Of a DNA stretch of 64,000 nt, positions 3,541 to 62,664 are shown in pieces; the first letter of the stretch is position 1; every line of letters begins with the position of its first letter. The translations under genes were made by a program, and so were the position numbers. The stretch lies in assembly GCA_911728435.2 (NCBI GenBank), contig OU452216.1, forward strand, positions 7,762,342-7,826,341, given 5' to 3'. A model generated the notes under the pieces. The model saw nothing but the letters and a program-made list of their open reading frames with translations. It searched no databases and was not told the origin of the DNA. Origin of the DNA: Apoderus coryli (Eukaryota > Arthropoda > Insecta > Coleoptera > Attelabidae).

Positions 3541-3621
3541 TTAATTTTACCACACGTAAATTTTTTAGAGCAAAACGAAAATGTGAGAAACTTTTTTAGT
3601 TTGCTAGAATGGTTTCATACA

Positions 3622-3673
3622 TTTTTAGCTCTCCATATCATATATGTAATATATGATATGGAGAGCTAAAAAT
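3622..3673. repeat. Near-perfect palindrome, single-hairpin version
   Basis: Arms of about 25 bp read TAGCTCTCCATATCATATAT and its reverse complement around a 3-nt spacer. The equivalent site in the duplicated segment (48713-48787) has gained an extra internal unit. Part of the arm recurs near 3730 and, inverted, near 52850. Confidence 0.9.
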
Positions 3674-6150: not shown

Positions 6151-6445
6151 ATGAAATTATCTGCTTCCACGCTTTCTAACAATTCAATTCAATATTTAGA
6201 AAACTCCACAAAGAATCACCACATCGTCCTACGTAATTATTTCAAGTTGCACCTACCTTGTTCAAGTTGCTCCAGTGCTTCCAGTCAAGTTACCCAAGTA
6301 TGGGTGATATATTTAGACTCTCTGCATCTTCTGATCCACCTTCTCCTCCATATATACATATAATACAAAAAAAAAAAAAAACCCAACTATAATACAAAAA
6401 AAAAAAAAAAAAAACTTGACATTCTGGTCCATTCATCCTGCAATA
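6151..6445 (-). pseudogene. Family exon with poly-T/TATAATAC expansion, fused to coil-exon end
   Basis: On the minus strand an acceptor TTATTGCAG leads into a short exon start (DEWTRMSS). The exon is then swollen by long T runs and GTATTATAG repeats, and resumes as SEDAESLNISP, a motif shared with the 19-26 kb array and the 44 kb exon. A few bases later comes LEALEQLEQ ending in G|GTAGGT, the same donor and downstream intron as the coiled-coil exons at 26 kb and 62 kb. It looks like a deletion fusion of two family exons with microsatellite growth inside coding sequence. The flank 6100-6260 matches 62130-62310. Confidence 0.5.
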
Positions 6446-11554: not shown

Positions 11555-11629
11555 TTTGGAATAAATAGTTTAATGTTTGTTGGACATAAAATATCAGAAA
11601 ATGGAATAGAACCAAGTGAAGATAAAGAG
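11555..11629 (+). pseudogene. Ty3/gypsy reverse-transcriptase scrap
   Basis: A 25-codon stretch reads FGINSLMFVGHKISENGIEP, then SEDKE. This matches the FLGH.IS..GI.P...K segment near the end of Ty3/gypsy reverse transcriptase domains. It breaks directly into the satellite at about 11630. A more decayed copy of the same stretch, with the same upstream bases, is at about 50905-50990. Confidence 0.65.
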
Positions 11630-14600: not shown

Positions 14601-15475
14601 AAAGATTATGAAGTGTATTAATCTTCGGTTAAACTGAATTTATATATTATAAACCAATAAAACTATAAACTTGTGTTTCAAATCAGCTTAGTTCTTGTCT
14701 TTTGGTGAAGGCGTCAATTTAAAAGATCAATAATAGCTTCGGATATCTTATTTCTTCCGATATGTGTATTTCAATATTCTTAAAAGTGAAGTATTCACAA
14801 GAATTTAAAGAGAAACTTCTAATATAAGCTAATAAACTGATCACAGACTAGAAATTTGCTTTAGAAATGTTATTCGTGTTGTTTGATGATGTGTTCCTGC
14901 TTCGATATGTGAACCTTCACAGGAATGTTAAAAATATCCTCTAGAATGATTAAATGAAAGATTATGAAGTGTATTAATCTTTGCTTAAACTTAATTTATA
15001 TATTATAAACCAATAAAACTATAAACTAGTATTTCAAATCAGCCTAGTTCTTGTCTTTTGGTGAAGGCGTCAATTTAAAAGATCAATAATAGCTTCGGAT
15101 ATCTTATTTCTGTACTTATTTGTTCCGATATGTGTATTTCAATAGTCTTAAAAGTGAAGTATTCGCAAGAATTTAAAGAGAAACTTCTAATATAAGCTAA
15201 TAAACTGATCACAGACTAGAAATTTAACTTTAGAAATATGTTATTCGTGTTGTTTGATGATGTATTCCTGCTTGGATATGTGAACCTTCACAGGAATGTT
15301 AAAAAGATCCTCTAGAATGATTAAATGAAAGATTAGGGAGTGTATTACTCTTTGATTAAACTGAATTTATATATTATAAACCAATAAAACTATAAACTTG
15401 TATTTCAAACCATCTTAGTTCTTGTCTTTTGGTGAAGGTGTCAATTTAAAAGATCAATAATATTTCCTGATATCT
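11630..15475 (+). repeat. Satellite array: ~366-bp monomers, 1,098-bp higher-order repeat
   Basis: Monomers begin near GGAATGTTAAA at 11999, 12370, 12726, 13097, 13468, 13825, 14195, 14566, 14922 and 15293. Identical monomer types recur every three, so positions 11999, 13097, 14195 and 15293 are exactly 1,098 bp apart. Each monomer shares AGTTCTTGTCTTTTGGTGAA. The first (about 11630) and last monomers are more diverged edge copies. No open frames are conserved. The same family resumes at 62665 to the window end, with a lone inverted relic at 52545-52740. Confidence 0.95.
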
Positions 15476-16484
15476 TATTTGTTTTACAATACTTAGCTTT
15501 GGCGACTAATATTGCCCAAATTAGGCGTTTTCTCTCATGGAAACCCATTTTTCTGTCGAATATAGCTCAGCACACGTGAATCCTTTCGTTATTCTAAGTA
15601 CACTCAAGGATCAATAATTTCCAAAGTGTTTCGGTTTTTCCCCCAAGATTTGACAAAGAATATTGCTTAGAAGGAAATAAAACACAAATTTTCAAAACTA
15701 ATAACATTTATTCAAAAATATAACAATAAAAACATTAAAATATTAACAATAATTATTTAAATTATAAATAATATAATGAGAGTTAGTAGTAATCAGAATT
15801 TACAATATTTATGACCTCAGAATCAGCCGGATTGTCAGATATTTATATGACAGAGCTTTATAGAGGTTTACTATTGAACTACAATTATTGTAAAATATTT
15901 TATATAAGAAAGATAATAAATAATTACAAATAAAAACAATAATTAAATTGACAATTTGTAAAAGAAAATTCGTAATGAAAAGAAAATAAAGTTGGCCTTT
16001 TCCAACAAAGAGCAAACTCTCGACTGTTTGTTTCAAATTTAGATAAAAAAAACAACAAGCAAAGTGGACCTATTTTACAAAATAATCAGGTGCACCTTAC
16101 TGAAATAAATAAACCAAATAAAATAAAGTTTGGCAAGTTAAAATATTGAAAAAACAACTCCAGAGTTTAGCTCGTTATTAGAAAAAACCCAACTTCCAAA
16201 TTATAATAAATATTTCCATACAAAGTTTAATATTATTATAAATCTGAAGATTTTCGAAACTTGATTGAAAATATAATTAATAATAATGAGACCTCTCGTC
16301 ATAATAGAACAATGTATGCATTAATTGAGAAAGTTTAATTGATTCAGATAAACATTTTTAAAGTTCTTTTGCGTTTCACTCTATACAATACGAATTAATT
16401 CTCAAGAATAATTCAAATATTATCAACAACAAAGGCTAATCATAACTCTCGAGAAACTTCAGCAAATAAAAGAGGAGATCCAAG
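15476..16484. other. AT-rich, no gene recognised
   Basis: Sequence between the satellite and the poly-T/poly-A tract. A 75-codon minus frame (15809-16036) is compositionally AT-driven, with no motif and no splice context. Confidence 0.3.
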
Positions 16485-18007: not shown

Positions 18008-18211
18008 ATGTCTGAAAAACAGGCCAACCATCAAGGGGCACAAAGTAAAGGACGGGGACGGCTCCGTATTCACCCCGTGAAGGGGAATACACCAAAGAAA
18101 AAGGGGTGCCCTAAGAAAGATAAAACAAGAAAAACCAAGGAGGAGTTCGATGACCACGGTGGTTTGTCGGGGACGAGGGCGGCCTTGGTTAAACAAATCC
18201 CTGCGGGTTAA
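18008..18211 (+). CDS. Intronless relative of microgene A (67 residues), possible retrocopy
   Basis: The frame starts MSEKQANHQGAQSKGRGRLR, continues through TPKKKGCPKKDK and joins directly to KTKEEFDDHGGLSGTRAAL, ending IPAG. The last part equals exon 3 of microgenes A and B in the same frame. The first five residues resemble their tiny exon 1 (MSVDNK, MDEKK). The exon 2/3 junction (AG|AAAAACC) occupies the same place without an intron. This suggests a reverse-transcribed, spliced copy of a paralogue whose middle exon encodes an AT-hook-like GRGRLR and Lys-rich segment. The start context is not clearly promoter-linked. Two further partial copies follow in tandem. Confidence 0.5.
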   Translation: MSEKQANHQGAQSKGRGRLRIHPVKGNTPKKKGCPKKDKTRKTKEEFDDHGGLSGTRAALVKQIPAG

Positions 18212-18585
18212 AACACCGAGAAAAAGGGGCACAAAGTAAAGGATGTGGACGGCTGCGTATTCACCCCGTGAAGGGGAATACAACAAAGAAAAAGGGGTGC
18301 CCTAAGAAAGATAAAACAAGAAAAACCAAGGAGGAGTTCGATGACCACGGTGGTTTGTCGGGGACGAGGGCGGCCTTGGTTAAACAAATCCCTGCGGGTT
18401 AAAACACCGAGAAAAAGGGGCACAAAGTAAAGGATGTGGACGGCTGCGTATTCACCCCGTGAAGGGGAATACACCAAAGAAAAAGGGGTGCCCTAAGAAA
18501 GATAAAACAAGAAAAACCAAGGAGGAGTTCGATGACCACGGTGGTTTGTCGGGGACGAGGGCGGCCTTGGTTAAACAAACTTTTA
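18034..18585 (+). repeat. Three tandem ~191-bp units containing microgene exon 3
   Basis: Units start at the GGGGCACAAAGTAAAGGA word near 18034, 18226 and 18417; the last is cut at about 18580. They are nearly identical except for a few point changes such as GGACGGGG/GGATGTGG. Each contains the middle-exon-like Lys-rich segment and the exon 3 homologue with its stop, so translation would not read through between units. Confidence 0.85.
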
Positions 18586-19008
18586 ACCTTTAATTTATAT
18601 GTATATGATCTCTTACGGATCCCTAAGTTTGTTAAAGTCAGATACAAATTTAGCAATCGTAATTACAGGTATATCCCATTAAGCGAGTTTTGGCAACATC
18701 GTCTCCTTTAACAACATGATTTTTAAACAACTGAAAAACGAAAACATTCAGTCTTGTTTCTGGAACGTATAGAGAGAAATAGAGAACAGTATAATATAAT
18801 AATAATATATATAATATAAAAAGTAAGTTTTTAAATTTATTTATTTTTTATTTAGAAGAGAAATTGTTTCCAGTAGTTGGTTTCAGCTAATTTTCAGAAA
18901 CATACTTACGAATATATTATTTTTTACTCATAAAAATAGAAAATTGAATAAATATGAAATTTGAAGTACCAATATAGAATAAAAATGGTGCTTCTTTACC
19001 ATTAAATT
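18575..19008 (+). repeat. ~430-bp repeat, inverted partner at 51717-52137
   Basis: The block from AACCTTTAATTTATATGTAT to the edge of the 194-bp array is the reverse complement of 51717-52137 with scattered changes. A diverged part is near 7621-7740. No coding content was recognised. Confidence 0.8.
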
Positions 19009-22000
19009 TGACGTCTGAAAAACAGGACAACCATCCAGGGAGTCTAAATATATCACCAGTCACACTCTTCTGCGTCTTATGGCGTGAATAACACTATCCT
19101 GTATTTTCTAATAAAAATGTTACAAACCGTAGATGAAAGAATCAAATCCATAGAAAGGAGAATTGAAGAACTAGAAAAATGGAAAAAAGGTAGGTGCAAC
19201 TTGAAATAATTTGACGTCTGAAAAAAAGGACAACCATCCAGGGAGTGTAAATATATCACCAGTCACACTCTTCCGCGCCTTATGGCGTGAATAACACTAT
19301 CCTATATTTCCTAATAAAAATGTTACAAACCGTAGATGAAAGAATAAGAGCCATAGAACAACGCTTGCAGCGAATTGAACAAGGTAGGTGCAACTTGAAA
19401 TAATTTGACGTTTGAAAAACAGGACAACCATCCAGGGAGTGTAAATATATCACCAGTCACACTCTTCCGCGTCTTATGGCGTGAATAACACTATCCTATA
19501 TTTCCTAATAAAAATGTTACAAACCGTAGAGGAAAGAATCAGATCCTTGGAGCAGCGGATGGAGCAACTTGAACAAGGTAGGTGCAACTTGAAATAATTT
19601 GACGTCTGAAAAACAGGACAACCATCCAGGGAGTCTAAATATATCACCAGTCACACTCTTCTGCGTCTTATGGCGTGAATAACACTATCCTGTATTTTCT
19701 AATAAAAATGTTACAAACCGTAGATGAAAGAATCAAATCCATAGAAAGGAGAATTGAAGAACTAGAAAAATGGAAAAAAGGTAGGTGCAACTTGAAATAA
19801 TTTGACGTCTGAAAAAAAGGACAACCATCCAGGGAGTGTAAATATATCACCAGTCACACTCTTCCGCGTCTTATGGCGTGAATAACACTATCCTATATTT
19901 CCTAATAAAAATGTTACAAACCGTAGATGAAAGAATAAGAGCCATAGAACAACGCTTGCAGCGAATTGAACAAGGTAGGTGCAACTTGAAATAATTTGAC
20001 GTTTGAAAAACAGGACAACCATCCAGGGAGTGTAAATATATCACCAGTCACACTCTTCCGCGTCTTATGGCGTGAATAACACTATCCTGTATTTCCTAAT
20101 AAAAATGTTACAAACCGTAGATGAAAGAATAAGAGCCATAGAAGAACGCTTGCAGCGAATTGAACAAGGTAGGTGCAACTTGAAATAATTTGACGTTTGA
20201 AAAACAGGACAACCATCCAGGGAGTGTAAATATATCACCAGTCACACTCTTCCGCGTCTTATGGCGTGAATAACACTATCCTGTATTTCCTAATAAAAAT
20301 GTTACAAACCGTAGATGAAAGAATAAGAGCCATAGAAGAACGCTTGCAGCGAATTGAACAAGGTAGGTGCAACTTGAAATAATTTGACGTTTGAAAAACA
20401 GGACAACCATCCAGGGAGTGTAAATATATCACCAGTCACACTCTTCCGCGTCGTATGGCGTAAATAACACTATCCTATATTTCCTAATAAAAATGTTACA
20501 AACCGTAGATGAAAGAATAAGAGCCATAGAAGAACGCTTGCAGCGAATTGAACAAGGTAGGTGCAACTTGAAATAATTTGACGTTTGAAAAACAGGACAA
20601 CCATCCAGGGAGTGTAAATATATCACCAGTCACACTCTTCCGCGTCTTATGGCGTGAATAACACTATCCTATATTTCCTAATAAAAATATTACAAACCGT
20701 AGATGAAAGAATAAGAGCCATAGAAGAACGCTTGCAGCGAATTGAACAAGGTAGGTGCAACTTGAAATAATTTGACGTTTGAAAAACAGGACAACCATCC
20801 AGGGAGTGTAAATATATCACCAGTCACACTCTTCCGCGTCTTATGGCGTGAATAACACTATCCTGTATTTCCTAATAAAAATGTTACAAACCGTAGATGA
20901 AAGAATAAGAGCCATAGAAGAACGCTTGCAGCGAATTGAACAAGGTAGGTGCAACTTGAAATAATTTGACGTTTGAAAAACAGGACAACCATCCAGGGAG
21001 TGTAAATATATCACCAGTCACACTCTTCCGCGTCGTATGGCGTAAATAACACTATCCTATATTTCCTAATAAAAATGTTACAAACCGTAGATGAAAGAAT
21101 AAGAGACATAGAACAACGCTTGCAGCGAATTGAACAAGGTAGGTGCAACTTGAAATAATTTGACGTTTGAAAAACAGGACAACCATCCAGGGAGTGTAAA
21201 TATATCACCAGTCACACTCTTCCGCGTCTTATGGCGTGAATAACACTATCCTATATTTCCTAATAAAAATGTTACAAACCGTAGATGAAAGAATAAGAGC
21301 CATAGAACAACGCTTGCAGCGAATTGAACAAGGTAGGTGCAACTTGAAATAATTTGACGTTTGAAAAACAGGACAACCATCCAGGGAGTCTAAATATATC
21401 ACCAGTCACACTCTTCCGCGTCTTATGGCGTGAATAACACTATCCTATATTTCCTAATAAAAATGTTACAAACCGTAGATGAAAGAATAAGAGACATTGA
21501 AAAACGATTGCAGCGAATTGAACAAGGTAGGTGCAACTTGAAATAATTTGACGTCTGAAAAAAAGGACAACCATCCAGGGAGTCTAAATATATCACCAGT
21601 CACACTCTTCCGCGTCTTATGGCGTGAATAACACTATCCTATATTTCCTAATAAAAATGTTACAAACCGTAGATGAAAGAATAAGAGACATTGAAAAACG
21701 ATTGCAGCGAATTGAACAAGGTAGGTGCAACTTGAAATAATTTGACGTCTGAAAAAAAGGACAACCATCCAGGGAGTGTAAATATATCACCAGTCACACT
21801 CTTCCGCGTCTTATGGCGTGAATAACACTATCCTGTATTTCCTAATAAAAATGTTACAAACCGTAGATGAAAGAATAAGAGCCATAGAAGAACGCTTGCA
21901 GCGAATTGAACAAGGTAGGTGCAACTTGAAATAATTTGACGTTTGAAAAACAGGACAACCATCCAGGGAGTGTAAATATATCACCAGTCACACTCTTCCG

Positions 22001-25000
22001 CGTCGTATGGCGTAAATAACACTATCCTATATTTCCTAATAAAAATGTTACAAACCGTAGATGAAAGAATAAGAGACATAGAACAACGCTTGCAGCGAAT
22101 TGAACAAGGTAGGTGCAACTTGAAATAATTTGACGTTTGAAAAACAGGACAACCATCCAGGGAGTGTAAATATATCACCAGTCACACTCTTCCGCGTCTT
22201 ATGGCGTGAATAACACTATCCTATATTTCCTAATAAAAATGTTACAAACCGTAGATGAAAGAATAAGAGCCATAGAACAACGCTTGCAGCGAATTGAACA
22301 AGGTAGGTGCAACTTGAAATAATTTGACGTTTGAAAAACAGGACAACCATCCAGGGAGTCTAAATATATCACCAGTCACACTCTTCCGCGTCTTATGGCG
22401 TGAATAACACTATCCTATATTTCCTAATAAAAATGTTACAAACCGTAGATGAAAGAATAAGAGACATTGAAAAACGATTGCAGCGAATTGAACAAGGTAG
22501 GTGCAACTTGAAATAATTTGACGTCTGAAAAAAAGGACAACCATCCAGGGAGTCTAAATATATCACCAGTCACACTCTTCCGCGTCTTATGGCGTGAATA
22601 ACACTATCCTATATTTCCTAATAAAAATATTACAAACCGTAGATGAAAGAATAAGAGACATTGAAAAACGATTGCAGCGAATTGAACAAGGTAGGTGCAA
22701 CTTGAAATAATTTGACGTTTGAAAAACAGGACAACCATCCAGGGAGTGTAAATATATCACCAGTCACACTCTTCCGCGTCTTATGGCGTGAATAACACTA
22801 TCCTGTATTTCCTAATAAAAATGTTACAAACCGTAGAGGAAAGAATCAGATCCTTGGAGCAGCGGATGGAGCAACTTGAACAAGGTAGGTGCAACTTGAA
22901 ATAATTTGACGTTTGAAAAACAGGACAACCATCCAGGGAGTGTAAATATATCACCAGTCACACTCTTCCGCGTCTTATGGCGTGAATAACACTATCCTGT
23001 ATTTCCTAATAAAAATGTTACAAACCGTAGAGGAAAGAATAAGAGCCATAGAACAACGCTTGCAGCGAATTGAACAAGGTAGGTGCAACTTGAAATAATT
23101 TGACGTTTGAAAAACAGGACAACCATCCAGGGAGTCTAAATATATCACCAGTCACACTCTTCCGCGTCTTATGGCGTGAATAACACTATCCTATATTTCC
23201 TAATAAAAATGTTACAAACCGTAGATGAAAGAATAAGAGACATTGAAAAACGATTGCAGCGAATTGAACAAGGTAGGTGCAACTTGAAATAATTTGACGT
23301 TTGAAAAACAGGACAACCATCCAGGGAGTCTAAATATATCACCAGTCACACTCTTCCGCGTCTTATGGCGTGAATAACACTATCCTATATTTCCTAATAA
23401 AAATGTTACAAACCGTAGATGAAAGAATAAGAGACATTGAAAAACGATTGCAGCGAATTGAACAAGGTAGGTGCAACTTGAAATAATTTGACGTCTGAAA
23501 AAAAGGACAACCATCCAGGGAGTGTAAATATATCACCAGTCACACTCTTCCGCGTCTTATGGCGTGAATAACACTATCCTGTATTTCCTAATAAAAATGT
23601 TACAAACCGTAGATGAAAGAATAAGAGCCATAGAAGAACGCTTGCAGCGAATTGAACAAGGTAGGTGCAACTTGAAATAATTTGACGTTTGAAAAACAGG
23701 ACAACCATCCAGGGAGTGTAAATATATCACCAGTCACACTCTTCCGCGTCGTATGGCGTAAATAACACTATCCTATATTTCCTAATAAAAATGTTACAAA
23801 CCGTAGATGAAAGAATAAGAGACATAGAACAACGCTTGCAGCGAATTGAACAAGGTAGGTGCAACTTGAAATAATTTGACGTTTGAAAAACAGGACAACC
23901 ATCCAGGGAGTGTAAATATATCACCAGTCACACTCTTCCGCGTCTTATGGCGTGAATAACACTATCCTATATTTCCTAATAAAAATGTTACAAACCGTAG
24001 ATGAAAGAATAAGAGCCATAGAACAACGCTTGCAGCGAATTGAACAAGGTAGGTGCAACTTGAAATAATTTGACGTTTGAAAAACAGGACAACCATCCAG
24101 GGAGTCTAAATATATCACCAGTCACACTCTTCCGCGTCTTATGGCGTGAATAACACTATCCTATATTTCCTAATAAAAATGTTACAAACCGTAGATGAAA
24201 GAATAAGAGACATTGAAAAACGATTGCAGCGAATTGAACAAGGTAGGTGCAACTTGAAATAATTTGACGTCTGAAAAAAAGGACAACCATCCAGGGAGTC
24301 TAAATATATCACCAGTCACACTCTTCCGCGTCTTATGGCGTGAATAACACTATCCTATATTTCCTAATAAAAATATTACAAACCGTAGATGAAAGAATAA
24401 GAGACATTGAAAAACGATTGCAGCGAATTGAACAAGGTAGGTGCAACTTGAAATAATTTGACGTTTGAAAAACAGGACAACCATCCAGGGAGTGTAAATA
24501 TATCACCAGTCACACTCTTCCGCGTCTTATGGCGTGAATAACACTATCCTGTATTTCCTAATAAAAATGTTACAAACCGTAGAGGAAAGAATCAGATCCT
24601 TGGAGCAGCGGATGGAGCAACTTGAACAAGGTAGGTGCAACTTGAAATAATTTGACGTTTGAAAAACAGGACAACCATCCAGGGAGTGTAAATATATCAC
24701 CAGTCACACTCTTCCGCGTCTTATGGCGTGAATAACACTATCCTGTATTTCCTAATAAAAATGTTACAAACCGTAGAGGAAAGAATAAGAGCCATAGAAC
24801 AACGCTTGCAGCGAATTGAACAAGGTAGGTGCAACTTGAAATAATTTGACGTTTGAAAAACAGGACAACCATCCAGGGAGTCTAAATATATCACCAGTCA
24901 CACTCTTCCGCGTCTTATGGCGTGAATAACACTATCCTATATTTCCTAATAAAAATGTTACAAACCGTAGATGAAAGAATAAGAGACATTGAAAAACGAT

Positions 25001-26019
25001 TGCAGCGAATTGAACAAGGTAGGTGCAACTTGAAATAATTTGACGTTTGAAAAACAGGACAACCATCCAGGGAGTCTAAATATATCACCAGTCACACTCT
25101 TCCGCGTCTTATGGCGTGAATAACACTATCCTATATTTCCTAATAAAAATGTTACAAACCGTAGATGAAAGAATAAGAGACATTGAAAAACGATTGCAGC
25201 GAATTGAACAAGGTAGGTGCAACTTGAAATAATTTGACGTCTGAAAAAAAGGACAACCATCCAGGGAGTGTAAATATATCACCAGTCACACTCTTCCGCG
25301 TCTTATGGCGTGAATAACACTATCCTATATTTCCTAATAAAAATGTTACAAACCGTAGATGAAAGAATAAGAGACATTGAAAAACGATTGCAGCGAATTG
25401 AACAAGGTAGGTGCAACTTGAAATAATTTGACGTTTGAAAAACAGGACAACCATCCAGGGAGTCTAAATATATCACCAGTCACACTCTTCCGCGTCTTAT
25501 GGCGTGAATAACACTATCCTATATTTCCTAATAAAAATGTTACAAACCGTAGATGAAAGAATAAGAGACATTGAAAAACGATTGCAGCGAATTGAACAAG
25601 GTAGGTGCAACTTGAAATAATTTGACGTCTGAAAAAAAGGACAACCATCCAGGGAGTGTAAATATATCACCAGTCACACTCTTCCGCGTCGTATGGCGTG
25701 AATAACACTATCCTATATTTCCTAATAAAAATGTTACAAACCGTAGAGGAAAGAATCAGATCCTTGGAGCAGCGGATGGAGCAACTTGAACAAGGTAGGT
25801 GCAACTTGAAATAATTTGACGTCTGAAAAACAGGACAACCATCCAGGGAGTCTAAATATATCACCAGTCACACTCTTCCGCGCCTTAAGGCGTGAATAAC
25901 ACTATCCTGTATTTCCTAATAAAAATGTTACAAACCGTAGATGAAAGAATGACAGAACTGGAAACACGCATGTTAGAAATAGAACAATGGAAACAAGAAT
26001 TAGAACAATGGAAACAAGG
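19006..26019 (+). repeat. 36-unit tandem array of 194-bp units, each a putative first exon with donor
   Basis: Donor words G|GTAGGTGCAA occur at 19190, 19384, 19578, 19781, 19975 and then every 194 bp to 25795, with the last at 26019. Each unit has an invariant leader (AATAACACTATCCT..., TAATAAAAATG), an ATG, an exon of 21 codons plus one base, and the donor. Exon lengths differ only by +9 nt (units 1, 4) or +30 nt (unit 36), always whole codons. Exons fall into a few types: SIERRIEELEKWKK, AIEQRLQRIEQ, AIEERLQ, DIEQRLQ, DIEKRLQ, SLEQRMEQLEQ and the unique unit 36. The predicted peptides have coiled-coil heptads. Units 9, 19 and 28 have ATA for ATG. Nine units (15-23) were duplicated as a block (24-32). 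Further upstream in each unit is SEKQDNHPGS(L/V)NISPV, usually without a start codon. Confidence 0.9.
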
Positions 26020-27195
26020 TAGGTGCAATTTGAAATAATTACGTAGGACGATGTGGTGATTCTTTGTGGAGTTTTGAAGGAAATAGCTTCTTTTTTTTAA
26101 AAAAAAAAAAAACATGAGAGCTGACAACAAAATTTTGTGCAAGAGCCAGTATTATGAACATTCGAATACCCGATCGCGTGTCATCGTATCCTATAAAATT
26201 GCAAATACATAATCATTATTTGACTGTATTTTGTTCATTTTCATGTTCAACAATTTCAACAAAATTTAAAAAACCTCGTACAGAATAAAATGTTGTACCG
26301 AGACAGAAATAAATTGTCGAATAATAATAAATAATTGTGAGTAACGACGAAAAAATGTTTTTAAAAAACCTACTAGGTACTCTACATAGGTTTGACAATG
26401 TATAATAAATAAATGAACTAACGATACACCCAGTAAATCAAAAAGTATATCTTCGTTTACGTGTGGTGTTTTCGATTATTTTAAATTTAAATGAAAATCA
26501 GGAAAAAAACAAATAATTTCCTATATGTACCTATAGGTAATAATAGCATTGTATTATGCATATTTCTAACGCTATAGGTAACTTACAAGTATCTATTAAA
26601 TTCATACGTTACTTCTGTATGATTTTTAAATGCATCATCCTCTATCAAATTGTTAAAGTATTAAGTAAATCATAATTAATTATATAATATGTTATATTTA
26701 TTTCAGAAGTTATGGCGTACAGGCAAACAATAAGAAAAACGCCGAGGAGGCCGAGGGGTCGTCCGAGGAAGAAAAGTAAGTTAAAAGCCAAAAATGTTCA
26801 AAGTACATAATATTACGTAAATAACCTACATCTAATACAGTATTGAATATAATTTTGTTAGGCTATTTTTTTTATTGGCCTCTGCATGTTAGGCCCTGTT
26901 TAGGTTATTTCTCAAGAAACTTTCATAATTCGATTCATGTTGAAAAAATCGTATTTTGTGTTAACTTTGCTCAAGCAAATAGTTTTGCTAGATGCCGCAA
27001 AACACATTCTGTTTCAAATCCTTCATTGTCATTGGTCGCACAGAAAAGATTGTTTTAAGAGAGGGATAACCAACCTTAACTAATGAAACCAAAATTACAA
27101 CTGAATCTGATTATGTCGGACACCAAAATGCTTGACATTCAATGATATTAATTATGTTTTGTTTTTCAGGGGACGATGACGCTGCTGCTCAATAA
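25925..27195 (+). CDS. Microgene C: coiled-coil/AT-hook/acidic 62-residue protein
   Basis: Exons are 25925-26018, 26707-26775 and 27170-27195 (94+69+26 = 189 nt, 63 codons with stop). Donors are GTAGGT and GTAAGT; acceptors are TTATTTCAG and TTTTTCAG. The frame stays open through phases 1 and 1. Residues 1-31 form an E/K/Q-rich heptad segment with two EQWKQ-type repeats. Residues about 44-54 are a canonical AT-hook (RRPRGRPRKK), and the tail is DDDAAAQ. An AT-hook suggests binding in the minor groove of AT-rich DNA, and the coil suggests dimerisation; both are inference. The first exon is unit 36 of the upstream array, so any of 36 alternative first exons could in principle splice to exon 2. 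A relic of polyadenylation-type AATAAA follows. No database family is recognised. Confidence 0.6.
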
Positions 27196-28212: not shown

Positions 28213-28291
28213 AGGACAACACTTGTTGCTTCAGAACATAGAAAGACTCTGGAAAGGCTAATGGAAGAACTCCTAGCAGAAATAAAAGGAA
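28213..28291 (+). pseudogene. Lone coiled-coil exon relic of the microgene family
   Basis: An acceptor CTGTTTTCAG leads into an open stretch TTLVASEHRKTLERLMEELL, then AEIKG. It is followed by AAGGTGTAACTTGAAATAATT, which corresponds to the donor and intron start of the array units (GTAGGTGCAACTTG). The downstream flank (GATTCTTTGTAGAGTTTTCT) matches the intron of microgenes C and D. The donor GT has been changed or shifted by three bases. It has an upstream acceptor but no ATG leader, unlike the array units. Confidence 0.5.
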
Positions 28292-28419
28292 GGTGTAACT
28301 TGAAATAATTAGACTATTATGTTTGTGGTGATTCTTTGTAGAGTTTTCTAAATATTTCGCATTTTTTGTTTCAAAGAAGCCTCAACAAAAGTAAAAGTTT
28401 CCCTGCGCCTGACTAAAAC

Positions 28420-32390: not shown

Positions 32391-32393
32391 AAT

Positions 32394-33734: not shown

Positions 33735-33911
33735 TTTATTATTATAATTGTATTATTATTATCTTGCTGATGGTCAGTAGATTTATTTTATTTATCTTTA
33801 ATTGATATGATTTTTTAATCACTGGCTATATCGTATCTGTATACTTATCGTAGTGCGACTGATAACAGAGCGATTAATAATACGTCTGTACACCACGAAT
33901 TCCAAAAGGAT

Positions 33912-44910: not shown

Positions 44911-44977
44911 GATTCTTCTGTTCATCTTAATTGTTTTATTTTAAAAATAATATATAATAAAAAATAAAAAATAAAAT

Positions 44978-45539
44978 TCATTCGGCCGCATTGTCATTGT
45001 CCCCTGAAAAACAAAACATAAATAATATCATTGAATGTCAAGCATTTTGGTGTCCGACATAATCAGATTCAGTTGTAATTTTGGTTTCATTAGTTAGGGT
45101 TGGTTATCCCTCTCTTAAAACAATCTTCTCTGTGCGACCAATGACAATGAAGGATTTGAAACAGAATGTGTTTTGCGGCATCTAGCAAAACTATTTGCTT
45201 GAGCAAAGTTAACACAAAATACGATTTTTTCAACATGAATCGAATTATGAAAGTTTCTTGAGAAATAACCTAAACAGGGCCGGGGTAGGTGGTCTATTAA
45301 AAATAACTGGATGATGGGTAAATTGCCTAACATGCAGAGGCCAATAAAAAAAATAGCCTAACAGAATTATATTCAATACTGTATTAGATGTAGGTTATTT
45401 ACGTAATATTATGTACTTTGAACATTTTTGGCTTTTAACTTACTCTTGTTTTTCCTTGGACGCCCCGGGGGCCTCCTCGGCGTTTTTCTTATCATTTTTT
45501 TCTTTTTAGGCCGCCCCGGGGGCCTGTGTGCCATAACTT
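44978..45539 (-). pseudogene. Microgene E: AT-hook exon and terminal exon, first exon missing
   Basis: Exon 2 (45539-45444, 96 nt) follows TTATTTCAG and ends at GTAAGT. In the phase used by microgene C it encodes two AT-hook-like blocks, RPPGRPKKKK and RRPPGRPRKN. Exon 3 (45003-44978) completes RDNDNAAE and a stop. The intron between them is close to those of C and D. Compared with C (69-nt exon 2, one hook), E has gained 27 nt and a second hook. Upstream similarity ends near 45712, so no coiled-coil exon is attached. It may be a fragment or use a distant first exon. Confidence 0.6.
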
Positions 45540-45983
45540 CTGAAATAAATATAACATATTATATAATTAACTATGATTTACTTAATACTTTAACAATTTG
45601 ATAGAGGATGATGCATTTAAAAATCATACAGAAGTAACGTATGAATTTAATAGATACTTGTAAGTTACCTATAGCGTTAGAAATATGCATAATACAATGC
45701 TATTATTACCATTCTCCAGACTAACGAAGGGTCAGAAAAACCTTAAATATACAAGGTTTTTCAAAAAAGCTGGCTCGTTTCGAAAATATTTCAAACAAAT
45801 CGTCCTGAGGCAGTCATCTTTAACACCCTGTATTTTTGTAAATAAGGACTTTTCGACAACTTACAATTTTCGGCCAGCTTTTTTTGAAATACCTTGTATA
45901 GGCATTAAATGTTTTAACAAAATTGTAAGAGTGAGAAAATAATGAGTTTTAGGTCTTTTGTAAAACAAACTAATGTATTTTAA

Positions 45984-46215
45984 GCCAACGTTTCGACAAT
46001 CTTTATTGTCATCCTCAGGGCACAAATCATTGTTTCTTTTTGTCGGTAAGAATTTTTGATATAAACGAGACACGCACAAATAGAACATGTATGTATACTT
46101 ATGTATAAATAAAATAACATAAAAGTATAACAACAATACAATTAGTCGTCTAATCTGGATGGTATTTTATTTAGTGTGTTGTTATACTTTTATGTTATTT
46201 TATTTATACATAAGT
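45984..46215 (-). repeat. Penelope-type terminal hairpin and foldback
   Basis: On the minus strand 46021-45984 reads GCC, CTGAGGA, T, GACAAT/ATTGTC hairpin, GAAAC, GTTGGC. This is the same architecture as the hammerhead-like motif at 989-1029 but with a changed core (CTGAGGA). Beyond it, 46085-46140 and 46150-46208 form inverted arms sharing TATACTTTTATGTTATTTTA. No coding sequence of the element is present. Confidence 0.5.
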
Positions 46216-46363
46216 CGTAATGGATTATTTCAGACAATAATTGTGATTTATTTAAAATATTAAATTTTTATTTTTATTTACGTAATATTATGTACTTTAA
46301 ACATTTTTACCTTTTAACTTAATGGCTTTCACTTTTTTCGGGCGGCCCCTTTTTCTTTGTGTT

Positions 46364-48211
46364 TTAACCCGCATTGATTGATTTAAACGGGGCCGCCCCC
46401 GTCCCCGACAAACCACCGTAGTCATCGAACTCCTCCTTGGTTTTTCTGAAAGAAATATAACATATTATTATTAGGAATGGGCTTGTTTAACAAAACAAGA
46501 CTTAAAATCCGAGAGTTTGTCTGTCAACCACTATACTTTCACCAGACGGCCGTTTCGTCGATCCACGACTCATCAGTGGTGATCGGTCAGTAGTTGACAG
46601 CCAAACTCTCGCAAATAATGTGGTATATACCACAAACGGTACAGAGATGTAAAAGGATGTGTTTGGCGACATCTAGTTTTATTGTTGGTAGTACGCAGAG
46701 TGAACACAGTTACTTTATGGGGTCAGAGACCTCCCAGGCAGTCGATATAGGAACTGTGTTCACTCGGTGTACTACCAACAATAAAACTAGATGTCGCCAA
46801 ACACATCCTTTTACATATTATTATTAGGTATATATAGGTAAGTTTAAAAAGTATGATTTTTTAAATTTTTGAACCCATTTTTCAACCCCTTTCCTAAGCT
46901 CAATATTTCCTAAAAGCTAATGAGCACCTACACAACATATCCTGTAGTGTTTATGTACCAAATTTGCTAAAATATTATATTAATAAAAATTAAATCCAAC
47001 GACTGCGATTTAAAAAAAAAAGGCTGAATGTACAAGTTTCAATTTGGATGCCGAAAGAGAAGTGATTTTTTAGTATACGATAATTATATTATTCTTAGAG
47101 AATAGTCGAATATAGCAAAAAGCTGTTGTACCTACTGAACGGATTAAATTCAATTATTTGCATTGTTATCGGGTTTTATTTGAATTTACTGTTATTATCC
47201 TTACCTTAGTATTCCCCGTCCCCCATCGAGGGGCACCATTTTCGTCCGTTTGTAAATTGGGGCTTTATCTTGCTGAAAAATAAATATCAAAATCACGTTA
47301 TTCAAATGATACAACAAATAGAAATAAAGGATGGAATGATATAGGTACCTAAATTTAACCGTTATCGAGAATTTTACGAATGAATATAACAAAATCGATA
47401 TTATTATTACAAATTAAGAAAGTTCCTATAAACATAGTTCTGCAAACGCATTGTAACCGAGATACAGGGCGTTCAAAATTAGCCCCTGATGATGGTTTTT
47501 TGTTAATATTAACCTACCTATTTGATTTTTAATTCTTATAATACCTATTATATATTATAATTATATCAAAATACAAGAAAACCATTTTTAGGCAAATTAC
47601 AATTACTTTTATTAATGTATACCACCTATTTTTGAATTGAAAATGACTTTAAATTTAAAAATAAAAAAATCCAGAGCCGTATTTCATAAAACCAAGTTGA
47701 TGATGGTATTTAAAAAACAAAACGTCGTAGTGAAAACATTTGTAAACGCTATGTTATTCTCCCCAACAAAAAAGAATGAGTTGCTATTAACAATTGGGAA
47801 TTTAGAGAATATTATTTACAACTACTATAACTACATTTAAATACATATACACTGTGGCACAAGAATAATGGCCGCCACAGTTTAAAACAAAGTACTATTT
47901 TTGTTAAATGTGTTGAGTGTATCGTTTTTTAAACTTGTTAAAAGAATTACATAATGTTTAACGTATCGTATTTTGCGAGTTACATAAAAATAAATGTAAT
48001 TTCAGTCGTACACCTTCGAAATAAAAAAAATAAAGGAAATAATTTTCATCTTACTTGAAAGAACGGGAATAAGTCTCTGATGATTTATGGCTATTACTTA
48101 AGATTTGAATATGATAGAGACTTCCGAATACTTTCTTAAAGCAAAGCTAAGTTGTATCTAATAACTAAACTAAAGTACTTACTTTTTTTTCATCCATTTT
48201 GGAGTTGTGAT
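46364..48211 (-). CDS. Microgene B: three-exon, 54-residue paralogue of A
   Basis: Coding parts are 48183-48197, 47205-47272 and 46364-46445 (15+68+82 nt, 55 codons with stop). Splice sites equal those of A. The protein starts MDEKKQDKAPIYKR, has the core TKMVPLDGGRG, and ends KTKEEFDDYGG...SINAG. Exon 1 is MDEKK against MSVDNK in A. Exon 2 differs from A at roughly a third of its bases, mostly outside or synonymous within KMVPLDGGRG, while the adjoining introns are identical over more than 100 bp each side. Exon 3 differs by one base (SFNAG to SINAG). This pattern argues for selection or exon replacement rather than neutral drift. No function is known. Confidence 0.6.
46476..46813 (-). mobile_element. 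338-bp hairpin-chain insertion with hammerhead ribozyme, copy 2
   Basis: This has the same length and flanks as 1361-1698, with direct repeats CATATTATTATTAGG at 46461-46475 and 46814-46828. Carried along by segmental duplication rather than inserted independently. Confidence 0.75.
46539..46582 (-). ncRNA. Hammerhead ribozyme, copy 2
   Basis: All stems and core bases equal those at 1424-1467: stem I TCACCA/TGGTGA, CTGATGA, stem II GTCG/CGAC, GAAA, short stem III, cleavage after GTC. Confidence 0.85.
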
Positions 48212-48712
48212 CTGAAATAAGTATATTGCTTTTATTTAATAATAATAATAATAAAGGTCTTTTATTGCATATTTAACAAACAAGTAAATTAATTTTTTAT
48301 ATACGCAATTGGGCGAGATTCAGTACGTCTGTTCAATTGATAAATATTAAGATCGGAATATTAATTGAACATTACTAGCAAACGGTTCAAGATACAATCT
48401 AAAATAACCGCCTACAATTTAGATACAGGGTAATTCAAGAATTTGAATTTTTTTATATTTTCGGGGGTTGTTGGGTGACCACAGTTCACTTTTGAATGTG
48501 TTATTTATTATGTACAGGCTTTTAAATAATTTACTTGTATACAGGGTAATCCCAATGCACTTTTAAGTGAATTATTTATCATGTTCAAAACAATATATAC
48601 AGGGTGATGCAAAAAATATATTAATTTTACCACACGTAAATTTTTTAGAGCAAAACGAAAATGTGAGAAACTTTTAATTTTTTTTTTTAGTTTGCTAGAA
48701 TGGTTTCATACA

Positions 48713-48787
48713 TTTTTAGCTCTCCATATCATATATGTAATATATGATATGGATCATATATGTAATATATGATATGGAGAGCTGAAA
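48713..48787. repeat. Expanded palindrome (partner of 3622-3673)
   Basis: The duplicated segment here has the palindrome's inner ATCATATATGTAATATATGA unit twice, joined by TATGG. Copy 1 has it once. The outer arms are retained. Confidence 0.9.
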
Positions 48788-49787
48788 ATATATATAAATT
48801 TTAGATAAATGACAAAAAGGTCATAAAATTATTACTTTTACACTTAAATATGGAGAGCTATTCGTGCCTCGAGGGCAACAGTTTATTAAGATTACGGAAT
48901 AACTTTGGCCTCTGAAATTCTTTTATAAAAAAATTAAATTTCTTTTTGCAAATGTTGACGGTCTTGAATCATATCCCAACTAGCAATTCGACATTCTTAA
49001 AGAACTAATATATTTTATAATTATTTTATTGCCGCTTAGTTAAAACTTTTTTGTTCTTTAAAGTTTCGTTTCGTGATTAAACTGCTGTGTTAAACTTTTC
49101 TGTGACAAAAATTGTTTTAAGAACGTTTTTACAGCAAAATAATAAAATAGTTATAAAATATGATATTGTAACAATTTTATAAACGTTTATAAAATACTTT
49201 TTGTAGGACGAATTTGTTTCGAATGATAATTGGTTTTGAAAGCATTTTGTAAAAGTACTAGTCTGGATTAACTTGTTCCTTTAAAAACAATTATAAAATT
49301 ATTCTGTTAAAGTACATTTCGTAATAATAAAATAGTTTTTTTATTGTCGTTATTAAGAGCGATTTGTTATCTGCAGCAAATTGGTGCGCAAATTAATAAT
49401 TACAAAATTGTTTTTTAGTTATTTTATTAAAAACAATAAAAAAATAAATATGTTGCCAATGCATATTTTATAAAATTAAAATGCTGTCATAAACATTACC
49501 TAGAACTAATATATAACATAGTCTTATTTATTTTCAACTGATATTTATTGTTATATCATACACAGGTTTAAAATGTTGTCCAAACGAAAAGCAGTTGTGC
49601 ATTTAATAGAAAATTAATTACAATATTATAAATTAGCAAAGGCAAAACATTAGTGACTATAATAAAGAGTAGCAAACTGTAATGGAATCTAATCAAATTA
49701 ATGACAATTTATAAGACACCAAATATTTTGAAGACTGATAAATTCTCAGGAGGAATTATTACTAGATGGTGAGCGGGTAGCCGAAAT

Positions 49788-51716
49788 AGAGAATTGGTGA
49801 TCAATATCATGCTTCAAGCACAAGTGAGCTAGAAAAAATGCAAAACTAAGAGAAAACATGCGAACATGGGCATTATCAAATAATGTTCCGCATTTTTCCC
49901 AAAAGAAGCTTTTTGCTATACTCAATAAACACATGCCAAATTTTCTACCTCAAGATCCTCCAACTCTCTTAAAGACACTCAACAAACCGTTTTAATAACG
50001 GCAGTTATAACATACATTAACATAAAAGAGCTCAATTTAGGTTATGTTTAAATTACTCCCGTAAAAGCTAATAAGAGAGTAACTATAAAAGCATTTTGTT
50101 TTATAAGAACACATTAAAAGTTTTTATAAAACATAATATGTTAAAGTTTGTTTTGTAAAACTCTGTTTACTATTTTAATAAGCTCTACAGAATCAGTCAT
50201 TATATAATAAAGGATATCGCAAAAGATTATTTTCAACAATAAGTGACAATAAAAAAAATATTTTATATAATTTATAAAATCTAAATTCATTAATTTACAT
50301 AATTCGCGAGGCGCATTAAAATTTTAATAATAATATACAATATATTTAACAGTAAATTTTGTTTCGCAGCCAAATCTGCTCATGGGTGAATTTTATCTGA
50401 CTTATTTTATTATTCATTATTGGGTATTATAGCGTTTTATATTATTTTTACCTCCATGATTGTTCAGATTTTATTAATGTGTACCAACAACAATGCATAA
50501 TAATTATAAAATAATTTTGTATAAAAATGTATTTTAGAAAAACGTTTTTATCCTTTAACTGTTGCCGCTGATAGCAAAAATGTCGAAATTGAGGCTCTTA
50601 TAAAAGAGTTATAAAATATGTTTATAACAGTTTTATTTGATTTTTATTAAATATTTATTCAAGTTCTAAAAACTATTGTATAATAGCAACAAGCAAAATT
50701 TATAGAGTCGTTAAAGAGTCGATTTGTTTTATAAATCTGCGCCTTTTTCGTGTTTATAAGGCGCGTAAGAACGTTGTGAAAATGTTTATAAAACAATGGG
50801 TGTTTTATAAAATATATTTTATAAATGTTCTTACAGCAATTAAAAAAGTTAAATTGTTAGTTGGGAGTAGATACCAAGAAATAAATTTAAAATTAAGTTT
50901 AAATACCTAAATGTAAATTTGAAACAAATAGTTTAACGTTTGCTGTGTGTATATATATAGAACCAAGTGAAGATAAGGTTTCAGCGATAAATAATAAAAC
51001 CAGTACTTCAATTTTATGATTATAAAAAATGTTTAAAAATTTCTGTGGATTCTTCGAGTAATGCCATTGATCTGTTTATTATGATTGATTCAAAATCATT
51101 AACATCAACTCAAAGAAATTATGCAAGACGGCATAGTCGAATATATACAATCCTTAAATTAAAAATGGCTTTAAATTGAACAATAAAAATCCAGGGGCAT
51201 ATTTAAAGAAACCATCATCAATTTCGGTTCTTTAAATACGCCCGTGGATTTTTATCGTTCGATTTAATGCCATTTTTAATTCAAAAACACGTAATGGTTT
51301 AAACACGTTTTCAGAGTTTGTTGTAATTATGTATTGTAGTGTAAATTTTTTTAAGTACGTACAATTAGTATGGTCCCAATTGATGGTAGAGAAACCTTGT
51401 TGTTTTTTTTTTCTACGAACAAACTGTTGTAATATTCGAATAGCGATCAGCCAATAGTAATTTAATAATGTAAATCACAGAGTGTACTATTAAAAGTAAA
51501 ATCTATAAGATAAATAAGTTAAAATAGTTATTATTTCTTGATAAGAACAATAAATAAATTGTGATCACCCTGTATATCAAAAACGAAGCATTTTATATGT
51601 TCATATGAAAAAAAAAATCTTATTTTTGTTTGTTGAATGTCCCCTTAAATTATTTTAACTTATTATATATTTTAAATACAATTTTTTATTTCAGAAAGCT
51701 TATAGTTTAGGTATAG
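49788..51716. other. No gene; TTATAAAA-dense DNA, a Ty3 scrap and a hairpin
   Basis: From 49990 to 50850 the words TTATAAAA and TTTATAAAAC recur many times, as in the tail of the duplicated segment (3950-4330). At about 50905-50990 is a decayed copy of the Ty3/gypsy scrap seen at 11555. At 51165-51295 two ~55-bp arms pair around a short centre (AATAAAAATCCAGGGGCATA and its partner). No coding frame is supported. Confidence 0.5.
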
Positions 51717-52137
51717 GAACAAATTTAATGGTAAAGAAGCACCATTTTTATTCTATATTGGTACTTCAAATTTCATATGTATTCAATTTTCTATTTTTAT
51801 GAGTAAAAAATAATATATTCGTAAGAATGTTTCTGAAAATTAGCTGAAACCAAGTACTGGAAACAATTTCACTTCTATAATAAAAAAAAAATAAATTTAA
51901 AAACTTACTTTTTGTTTTTTTATTACTATTATTTTATTACTATACTTGCTGCTATGCTAAACAAGACTGAATGTTTTCGTTTTTGAGTTGTTTAAAAATC
52001 ATGTTGTTAAAGGCGACGATGTTGCCAAAACTCGCTTAATGGCATATACCTGTAATTACAATTGCTAAATTTGTATCTGACTTTAACAAACTTAGGGATC
52101 CGTAAGAGATCATATACGTATAAATTAAAGGTTAAAG
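51717..52137 (-). repeat. ~430-bp repeat, inverted partner of 18575-19008
   Basis: Reverse complement of 18575-19008 with scattered changes, including shared AGATCATATAC-type ends and GGCGACGATGTTGCCAAAAC. It shows no coding content. Confidence 0.8.
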
Positions 52138-52544
52138 GTTATTATATTTTAAAACAGGCAAATATTTAAAGTATTAGATTACTTAAGTGAGAAATTATGC
52201 TCTAGCAGTCAAAAATATCCCATATTATTAAAACACTGGCAACAAAGTTGCAGCTAGGTATTTTAAACAGTTCGCATATAAAGTATAAATAAATATAGGT
52301 AAGTTGATGGTAAAACAGGGAGAAAAAAAATAAATTAAATAAAGGTAAATGTAACCATGAGTTTGTATTTAAGTCCCACTTTGAAAAATCATAAAGAACG
52401 TGCATTCTGAATCTATTAGATAAGATCGAGATTGGGTCTAGTAATCCCAGAGTTGGTCATCAAGGAAAATTCTCCACCCTATCAAATATAGAAGTTTGAA
52501 ATGCCAAACCAGGAAAACACTCTTATTAAATGATACGAACTAAA

Positions 52545-60351: not shown

Positions 60352-62407
60352 TCATTGTCGGCTGAAAAACAAAACATAAATAATATCATTGAATGTCAAG
60401 CATTTTGGTGTCAGACATAATCAGATTCAGTTGTAATTTTGGTTTCATTAGTTAAGGTTGGTTATCCCTCTCTTAAAACAATCTTCTCTGTGCGACCAAT
60501 GACAATGAAGGATTTGAAACAGAATGTGTTTTGCGGCATCTAGCAAAACTATTTGCTTGAGCAAAGTTAACACAAAATACGATTTTTTCAACATGAATCG
60601 AATTATGAAAATTTCTTGAGAAATAACCTAAACAGGGCCGGGGCAGGTGGTGTATTAAAAATAACTGGATGATGGGTAAATTGCCTAACATGCAGAGGCC
60701 AAAAAAAAAATAGCCTAACAGAATTATATTCAATACTGTATTAGATGTAGGTTATTTACGTAATATTATTACTTTGAACATTTTTGGCTTTCAACTTACT
60801 TATTTTTTTTATGCTGTCTTATTAGACCTCTCCTTGTGTATTCTGAAATAAATATAACATATTATATAATTAACTATGATTTATTTAATACTTTAACAAT
60901 TTGATAGAGGATGATGCATTTAAAAATCATACAGAAGTAGGTAACGTATGAATTTAATAGATACTTGTAAGTTACCTATAGCGTTAGAAATATGCATAAT
61001 ACAATGCTATTATTACCTATACATATAGGAAATTTAAATATTCTTGAAATAAAAGTCGACCTCCACACAATAAATTTAATAAATATCCTCAACAAATTAC
61101 ATTTGTCACCATACATGTTTCGCATCATCAGTGGTTATATGAGATTCTTACGAAAAGCTATGTTATACTAGTTGGTACATATTATTTTTGGGAATTTATT
61201 TATTAACTCTAGAAGTAAGATTGTATATATTATTTTCAATTGCACCAAAATGATTTTAACTTTTAAACTTACCATTGTGTGAAAAAAATTTTATTCTCTC
61301 AAGTCATAAAATAAATAAAAATAATGTGAGTTTTAGATTTTTTAGTTTTATTTTTAAATGTTTAGTAACACAAACTTAATTTCAAAAAACTTTTTATTTT
61401 ATGACTTGAGAGAATAAAATTTTTTTTTCACACAATGGTAAGTTTAAAATAATATATACAATCTTACATCTAGAGTTAATAAATAAATTCCCAAAAATAA
61501 TATGTACTAACTAGTATAACATAGTTTTTCGTAAGAATCTCATATAACCACTGATGATGCGGCCCGGAACTGCGAAACATGTATGGTGACAAATGTAATT
61601 TGTTGAGGATATTTATTAAATTTATTGTGTGGAGGTCGACTTTTATTTCAAGAATATTTAACTATTCTACTCCACTTCGATATGGACTACTTCTTTCGAA
61701 TATAGGAAATTATTTGTTTTTTTCCTGATTTTCATTTAAATTTAAAATAATCGAAAACACCACACGTAAACGAAGATATACTTTTTGATTTACTGGGTGT
61801 ATCGTTAGTTCATTTATTTATTATACATTGTCAAACCTATGTAGAGTACCTAGTAGGTTTTTTAAAAACATTTTTTCGTCGTTACTCACAATTATTTATT
61901 ATTATTCGACAATTTATTTCTGTCTCGGTACAACATTTTATTCTGTACGAGGTTTTTTAAATTTTGTTGAAATTGTTGAACATGAAAATGAACAAAATAC
62001 AGTCAAATAATGATTATGTATTTGCAATTTTATAGGATACGATGACACGCGATCGGGTATTCGAATGTTCATAATACTGGCTCTTGCACAAAATTTTGTT
62101 GTCAGCTCTCATGTTTTTTTTTTTTTTAAAAAAGAAGCTATTTCCTTCTTATATTTATGTTTTCTCCTAAAACTTCTAATGGAAGGCGTATATAATATCA
62201 TTGTAACATGAAATCACCTGCTTCCACGCTTTCTAACAATTCAATTCAATATTTAGAAAACTCCACAAAGAATTACCACATCGTCCTACGTAATTATTTC
62301 AAATTGCACCTACCTTGTCTCCACTTTTCTAGTTCATGCAAACGCCTTTGCAGTTCATCCAAACGCCTTTCCAGCGATCGAATTCTTTCATCTAGGGTTT
62401 GTAACAT
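60352..62407 (-). CDS. Microgene D: coiled-coil/basic 48-residue protein
   Basis: Exons are 62407-62314, 60842-60800 and 60361-60352 (94+43+10 = 147 nt, 49 codons with stop). Donors are GTAGGT and GTAAGT; acceptors are TTATTTCAG and TTTTTCAG. Exon 1 gives MLQTLDERIRSLERRLDELQ, then RRLHELEKWRQ. This is a regular heptad coil with three near-repeats of seven residues (LERRLDE, LQRRLHE, LEKWRQ). Exon 2 encodes EYTRRGLIRQHKKN and exon 3 only NRQ. Leader, introns and flanks are close to microgene C, but the exons differ strongly and the AT-hook and acidic tail of C are absent. Exon 1 is the same length as array unit 36. Intron 1 is interrupted by a foldback element (61037-61661). Confidence 0.55.
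61037..61661. mobile_element. 625-bp foldback element inside microgene D intron
   Basis: Inverted arms of about 250-290 bp begin AAATATTCTTGAAATAAAAG and meet near 61330. The uninterrupted form of the site is intron 1 of microgene C (about 26515-26530). The right arm carries a hammerhead-like motif; the left arm's copy lacks stem II. No coding frame is present. Confidence 0.85.
61547..61587 (+). ncRNA. Hammerhead-like motif in the foldback
   Basis: ACCA, CTGATGA, extra T, GCGG/CTGC stem with one G-U pair, GAAAC, ATGTA, TGGT. Stem I (ACCA/TGGT) is perfect. Like the motif at 989-1029 it has one extra T after the core and a two-pair stem III, so self-cleavage is uncertain. Confidence 0.4.
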
Positions 62408-62664
62408 TTTTATTAGGAAATACAGGATAGTGTTATTCACGCCATATGACGCGGAAGAGTGTGACTAAACTATTTAATTTCCTAAAAGTTTTATTCATGG
62501 GTTCTATAAGAATGATTTATGGCTACATTTTAAAAATATTGTGAATCTATACAAGATGCCCCAAATATAAGAAATAATAATAATAATTTATTTCCAAAAG
62601 AAAAACAAATACATGGAAGAAAAATGCCTTCATAAATAATACCTAAGGTTGTTACAAAAAAAAA

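Follow-up and report, generated by a model that had tools for sequence, protein, structure and literature searches.

A window of 64,000 nucleotides from the beetle Apoderus coryli (Attelabidae), corresponding to positions 7762342-7826341 of contig OU452216.1 (here C24) in the 428-Mb genome, contains 36 tandem units that lie on the forward strand upstream of an AT-hook exon and a short acidic exon (locus A). The units share a splice donor and a short open frame with a coiled-coil pattern, and this frame is under purifying coding selection. We regard it as quite possible, if short of probable, that the units form an array of alternative coding second exons, of which one would be used per transcript, in a fast-evolving family of tiny AT-hook genes. 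Coordinates are those of the window unless preceded by C24.

Organization of the unit array

A first-pass annotation of this DNA had described 36 tandem units, and this was confirmed: they are arranged head-to-tail from 19005 to 26018 and mostly measure 194 bp. Unit starts lie between 19005 and 25813, with a spacing of 194 bp in 33 of 35 cases and of 203 bp in two, and Tandem Repeats Finder (TRF), run on the window, reported a period of 194 with 35.7 copies, 95% matches and a score of 12358. The unit consists of 55 nt ending in CAG, an open segment of 57 nt, the coiled-coil coding part and the donor GTAGGT. The candidate exon of unit 1 spans 19060..19189 (130 nt; MLQTVDERIKSIERRIEELEKWKK) and that of unit 36 spans 25868..26018 (151 nt; MLQTVDERMTELETRMLEIEQWKQELEQWKQ), with a TAA ahead of its ATG. 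As had been claimed, the donor GTAGGTGCAA is constant (36/36 units), all 36 unit exons leave in phase 1, and exon lengths from the ATG position differ by whole codons only (64 nt in 33 units, 73 nt in units 1 and 4, 94 nt in unit 36). All are stop-free from this position.

The diversity of the array was overstated when it was described as 36 alternatives. An ATG, proposed for every unit, is present in 33 of the 36, while units 9, 19 and 28 have ATA at this place. From the ATG position onwards the array holds 10 distinct exon sequences, which specify 8 peptides starting with methionine, and 18 of the 36 whole units are distinct. Units 24-32 are identical to units 15-23, a recent duplication of a nine-unit block. 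Variable bases were said to lie in the exon; the leader varies too (10/112 sites, 36 units), but variation is indeed denser in the exon (15/64 sites in the 33 units of 64 nt; Fisher P=0.0125). With one unit per distinct exon (n=19), pairwise diversity was 0.335 in codons 9-21 vs 0.028-0.040 elsewhere in the unit. RNA structure prediction for the region of unit 36 gave a z of -0.60, Rfam gave 0 matches at the gathering score and a tRNA scan with the bacterial code gave 0.

Coding selection on the unit frame

A DNA search of the genome returned at least 70 matches, 68 on C24 and two on C10, and a protein search with the unit peptide returned 123 matches, exclusively on C24. The copy on C10 contains stops and was excluded from the counts. 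Within the C24 stretches that were fetched, TCACACTCTTY occurs at 123 places, 121 of which are followed by a donor. Arrays are found at four loci, with 69 units in G0, 36 in A, 4 in G1 and 3 in G2, and other loci have one or two units.

From the start position on, none of the 121 donor-bearing units has a stop or a frameshift, and their lengths differ only by +0, +3 or +10 codons. Both insertions equal 3 modulo 7, so that the valine which follows would stay on the hydrophobic face of the coil. Among 17 distinct ATG-bearing 63-mers, a set compiled before the G0 sequences were added, the synonymous difference (pS) was 0.42 and the non-synonymous difference (pN) 0.18, so that pN/pS was 0.43 in frame, whereas the two other frames gave 1.21 and 1.72. 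Parsimony over 23 distinct 63-mers, G0 included, assigned 33 changes to the first, 21 to the second and 52 to the third codon position, an excess at third positions among the 106 changes (P=6e-4); codons 9-21 hold 101 of them. In the codons of the a/d core of the coiled coil, 1 of 31 changes falls on position 2 compared with 20 of 75 elsewhere (P=0.006), and residues 2, 5, 9, 12, 16 and 19 are exclusively L, I, V, M or F in 20 of 21 distinct unit peptides. The unit exon frame is therefore under purifying coding selection.

Downstream exons and predicted protein

The proposal that units can join the AT-hook exon at 26707 and the acidic exon at 27170 is compatible with the sequence, and the reading frame continues through both. 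The intervening intron (26019..26706, plus strand) has no substitution in its last 171 bp compared with G1 and G2 (one gap each), one compared with paralogue D and two compared with paralogue B. The AT-hook exon (26707..26775, plus strand, phase 1-1; EVMAYRQTIRKTPRRPRGRPRKK) is followed by the last coding exon (27170..27195, plus strand), which encodes RDDDAAAQ and ends in TAA. The predicted product would consist of the coiled coil, then EVMAYRQTIRKTPRRPRGRPRKK and then RDDDAAAQ, which suggests a putative DNA-binding, coiled-coil AT-hook protein, possibly nuclear, with a variable pairing end. Pfam AT_hook gave no match at E<=1 for two versions of the A protein or for the D part, and no signal peptide was visible by eye in the predicted protein.

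Across the family, AT-hook-homologous exons with a donor measure 69-135 nt and are multiples of three except in B (43), B2 (56) and C24:9000399 (98); three further homologous exons have no donor by the pattern used. A GRP core in a basic setting is found in the translated exons at this position, except in B, B2 and the frameshifted C24:9000399. The exons are open in the matching phase, that of B2 ending in a stop, and phase 1 is the sole open frame in D and B when read by hand.

The upstream block and the start of the unit exon

A block that resembles a promoter is located at 18578..18747 (plus strand) and is common to the loci, with the D copy at 52140-51971. Over 182 bp it shows 0 differences between A and either G1 or G2, 6 between A and D and 1 between A and H1; the segment 18578-18759 is 97% identical to D. 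It is followed by a proposed non-coding first exon (18748..18822, plus strand) that starts with the initiator-like TCAGTC, contains no ATG and ends at the donor GTAAGT at 18823, some 240 bp short of the first unit exon. Absence of ATG was confirmed by script for five copies (A, G1, G2, D, H1) and by eye for the others. From just after TCAGTCTTGTTT to GTAAGT, A and D differ at 14 of 70 sites (counted from 18753) vs 11 of 362 around it (P=2.7e-6), and first-exon islands of this kind were seen at 10 places (nine, plus G0). Each of the four arrays is preceded by one such block with its variable exon, while in the second cluster on C24 they occur in pairs. It looks like a promoter with a non-coding first exon. 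A 191-bp tandem repeat of 2.9 copies lies at 18033-18579.

An AG directly precedes TCACAC in all 121 donor-bearing units (52/52 plus 69/69 in G0). The context is CACCAG in 46 and GTTTAG in 6 of the 52, and CACCAG in 69/69 of G0. From this AG to the start there are 57 nt, which stay open in the unit frame in 69/69 units of G0 and 35/36 of A, and 7 of 11 distinct changes in this stretch are synonymous in the unit frame (P=0.008) vs 2 and 1 in the other frames. An open stretch with mostly synonymous changes favours an internal exon over a leader. The upstream part of the unit was also read in the frame SEKQDN..., but this was dropped as 0 of 8 changes were synonymous. The status of first exons, which the first-pass annotation had given to the units, is thus not supported, considering the upstream block, to which a non-coding exon and a donor belong, and the AG before TCACAC in 121/121 donor-bearing units.

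Sister arrays and a probable recent expansion

The G0 array (C24:7678542-7691952), which the genome DNA search did not list, has a donor and an AG in all of its 69 units. On their upstream side, A, G1 and G2 share 10-17 kb of DNA at 99.5-99.8% identity (all on C24: 7717001-7734260 vs 7763472-7780729, 99.58%; 7723986-7735228 vs 7869191-7880412, 99.49%; 7770450-7780729 vs 7869191-7879465, 99.77%). Downstream identity is 98.18% for A/G1 (12 mismatches and 13 gap openings in 2748), 98.17% for A/G2 and 98.07% for G1/G2. As these near-identical segments hold 36, 4 and 3 units, the large copy number looks recent. The array is probably a recent expansion, in which many units may be passive. Different exon types stand side by side in G0, G1 and G2, and even the arrays of three and four units contain intact exons that differ from one another; such short arrays may represent the working state, of which A and G0 would be the expansion.

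Second exons, first exons or passive copies

In the proposed mechanism, a common promoter at about 18578-18747 would start one transcript near 18748, and the non-coding first exon (to 18822) would be spliced to one of the 36 unit exons. The chosen exon would provide the start codon and a coiled coil of 21-31 residues, and would then be joined to the AT-hook exon and the acidic exon. Unit exons of 121, 130 and 151 nt, all 1 modulo 3, would begin in phase 0 and end in phase 1. Two of them in series therefore shift the frame, and the second unit, read by hand, then runs into a TAA, so that one per transcript is needed. Copy number probably rose recently through unequal crossing over, starting with a short mixed array of the kind present in the sister loci of three to four units, and many units might be redundant.

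Several observations weigh against this mechanism. By eye, the pyrimidine tract of the unit acceptor is poor compared with those of the other introns. The first exon lacks an ATG and, if joined in phase 0, has an in-frame stop directly ahead of the junction in A and in G1; a TAA falls within the 57 nt in unit 36 of A and in the last G2 unit. The first ~33 nt of the unit exon, together with the GTTTAG context, resemble one arm of an inverted repeat; the second arm, of ~107 nt, lies at about C24:8997310-8997417. The AG boundary may accordingly be the boundary of a module or mobile element rather than a splice site, which weakens the argument drawn from the two upstream contexts of the acceptor. 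Pairing of one 73-nt unit intron with intron1a, intron1b, exon1 and intron3 was equalled by 30, 97, 11 and 126 of 200 shuffles, respectively, so that docking-type pairing is not clearly beyond shuffled sequence, exon1 being the strongest partner. The open-frame counts rest on 23 distinct sequences and not on 121 independent ones. ATA occupies the start position in 19 of the 121 donor-bearing units (16 of 69 in G0) and ACG in the two of 123 units without donor, which indicates that, in the big arrays at least, the start codon is not guarded. The weak acceptor, the stops before the start and the inverted repeat are the reasons why second-exon status is placed only moderately above first-exon status.

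Alternatively, each unit might start its own transcript, perhaps from an end derived from a mobile element, and be joined to 26707 as an alternative first exon in the manner of the UGT1 and protocadherin genes. Inverted-repeat ends of mobile elements can carry promoters, and the likeness of the first ~33 nt to an arm of the ~107-nt repeat would fit this, as would the weak acceptor, the invariant TAAATATAT ahead of the exon in 36 units and the start of homology at AGTCACAC in the C10 copy and in six units with another upstream context. We consider it unlikely, given that a conserved block complete with non-coding exon and donor lies upstream at A, G0, G1, G2, H1 and D, and that the open, mostly synonymously changing 57 nt suit an internal coding exon better than a leader. 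It is less doubtful, though still somewhat unlikely, that the array is largely a passive satellite in which one or a few units are used and the rest are functionless copies spread by unequal crossing over. Only 18 distinct units among 36, the duplicated nine-unit block, a copy number of 36 (and 69 in G0) against 3-4 in very similar segments and ATA in 19/121 units all point in this direction. Against it stand the selection on the exon types, the mutually different intact exons even in the arrays of three and four units, and the lack of stops and frameshifts in 121/121 donor-bearing exons; the last does not dismiss passive copies, as recent copying alone would also preserve open frames. Very improbable is a set of unspliced mini-genes, in which each unit would be translated across the donor into a short peptide with the ending ...GRCNLK*. 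This tail is open in both units that were read (36 and 2) and persists with silent changes in the remnant E, but it overlaps the donor, which accounts for its conservation, and the matching open phase of the AT-hook-position exons speaks for splicing.

Exon-limited divergence between loci

Near-identical sister loci are about 20% apart in the non-coding first exon and in the AT-hook exon. Between A and G1, differences amount to 0/182 in the promoter block, 1/170 in intron1a, 0/171 with one gap at the end of intron1b, 0/394 with one gap in intron3 and 0/300 in the downstream DNA, vs 7/40 with 3 gaps in the first exon, 12/64 with 3 gaps in the last unit exon and 15/69 in the AT-hook exon. The last exon with the 3' untranslated region (UTR) has only 1/84 and 3 gaps. 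With cheaper gaps and longer stretches, 13 of 230 exonic sites differ vs 11 of 3340 others (P=3e-10).

The clearest case is the pair F1 and F2 (minus strand, 1099-4673 and 46214-49789), in which a further exon shows differences, mostly synonymous, at 17 of 68 sites between introns with 0/310 and 0/60 differences; the 18-codon part of this exon has a pS of 0.70 and a pN of 0.08. Compared with F1/F2, F3 is identical in the 60 bp after this exon and differs in the 310 bp before it (34/283, 10 gaps). For the AT-hook exon of A and D, pS is 0.39 and pN 0.11. Positive selection on the protein offers no explanation for divergence at synonymous sites or in a non-coding exon.

The pattern has exceptions: the last unit exon is identical in A and G2, the first and AT-hook exons are the same in G1 and G2, the AT-hook exons of F1 and F2 have one difference, and in the downstream DNA A is strongly different from B or D. 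G0 combines a first exon as in A with an AT-hook exon as in G1/G2, and this mixed kinship points to separate histories of the exons. Replacement of all exons of a locus by a single cDNA event does not fit G0. What remain are introns that were homogenised while the exons were kept apart, or exon replacement via RNA or short exchanges. For the Hessian fly, homogenisation was proposed (PMC2955719). A bolder combination, which we hold to be decidedly unlikely, is that a small chromatin protein has its pairing end varied by mutually exclusive second exons in 36 and 69 copies, while exchange templated by spliced RNA or proceeding exon by exon replaces exons between near-identical promoters and introns.

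Paralogues and other features of the window

Three paralogues lie on the minus strand. B has one unit exon of 151 nt (62314..62464), an exon at the AT-hook position (60842-60800) and a last exon from 60361. D (44911..52140) has a first exon from 51970, an AT-hook exon with two hooks (45539-45444) and a last exon from 45003; no unit was found between its first exon and AT-hook exon. C (6239..6327) is a degenerate unit remnant. On the plus strand, E (28262..28347) consists of a diverged unit-exon tail and intron start, with a weak unit match (E=0.31) and an intron match of 80.7% over 57 bp.

A 103-bp part of the 191-bp repeat upstream of the array resembles, at 88-89%, two copies of the AT-hook exon region (1230-1332 and 46345-46447). 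At about 1197-1330 (minus strand), and in its copies, an exon is open in two frames when read by hand, one encoding AT-hooks and the other KTKEEFDDYGG.... A satellite of 369-371 bp lies beside genes of the cluster at 11628-15480 and 62668-64000. LINE-like open reading frames (ORFs) with reverse transcriptase occur at 29957-33752 (minus strand) and a transposase-like ORF with DDE and helix-turn-helix (HTH) matches at 56609-57727 (plus strand), both mostly below the curated cut-off. A scan for viral patterns marked four stretches with one exact 16-mer each.

Comparison with known exon arrays

HMGA-type AT-hook proteins have hooks of the PRGRP type plus an acidic tail. The predicted protein resembles them in hooks and tail, adds an N-terminal coiled coil and lacks a Pfam AT_hook match. 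None of the papers returned by the literature searches made here was seen to describe this locus, and the alternative-exon arrays known to us are all on cell-surface proteins or enzymes.

The nearest models would be Dscam-type and UGT1/protocadherin-type arrays, with membership of neither established. In Dscam1-type clusters (PMC6071210, PMC8042237), tandem homologous exons that arose by tandem duplication lie between constant exons and one per mRNA is wanted. Here, too, homologous exons stand in tandem between exons that are shared, as far as the proposed upstream exon is concerned presumably so, and two exons in series break the frame. In a cluster of this kind each exon should have an acceptor and a donor; here a donor is found in 121/123 units and an AG in 121/121 donor-bearing ones, with a weak tract and a possible mobile-element boundary. 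Unlike in Dscam1, no docking/selector pairing was found in a narrow test of one unit intron with four partners, the array exon carries the presumed start codon, the putative nuclear protein is tiny and many units are identical. UGT1 and protocadherin clusters (PMC1885805, PMC3325998) likewise place tandem variable 5' exons before shared constant exons, but each UGT1 first exon is preceded by its own promoter, whereas here a promoter-like block with a non-coding exon lies upstream and an AG precedes each donor-bearing unit exon.

The Hessian fly SSSGP-1 cluster (PMC2955719) shares small genes in inverted and tandem order in which promoter and intron are conserved and the coding parts have diverged. 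Its signal peptide, conserved UTRs and positive selection differ from the locus described here, where pN/pS of the unit exon is 0.43, the non-coding first exon has diverged too and some coding exons, such as the AT-hook exon of F1/F2 with its one difference, have not. Internal exons of the aphid bicycle genes are mostly of phase 2 (PMC9168663), while unit exons would go from phase 0 to 1, and no link was found.

If the units are indeed alternative second exons, splicing can vary how tiny putative DNA-binding proteins pair. The puzzle of uniform introns and diverged exons under purifying selection can be tested directly within one cluster of 230 kb.

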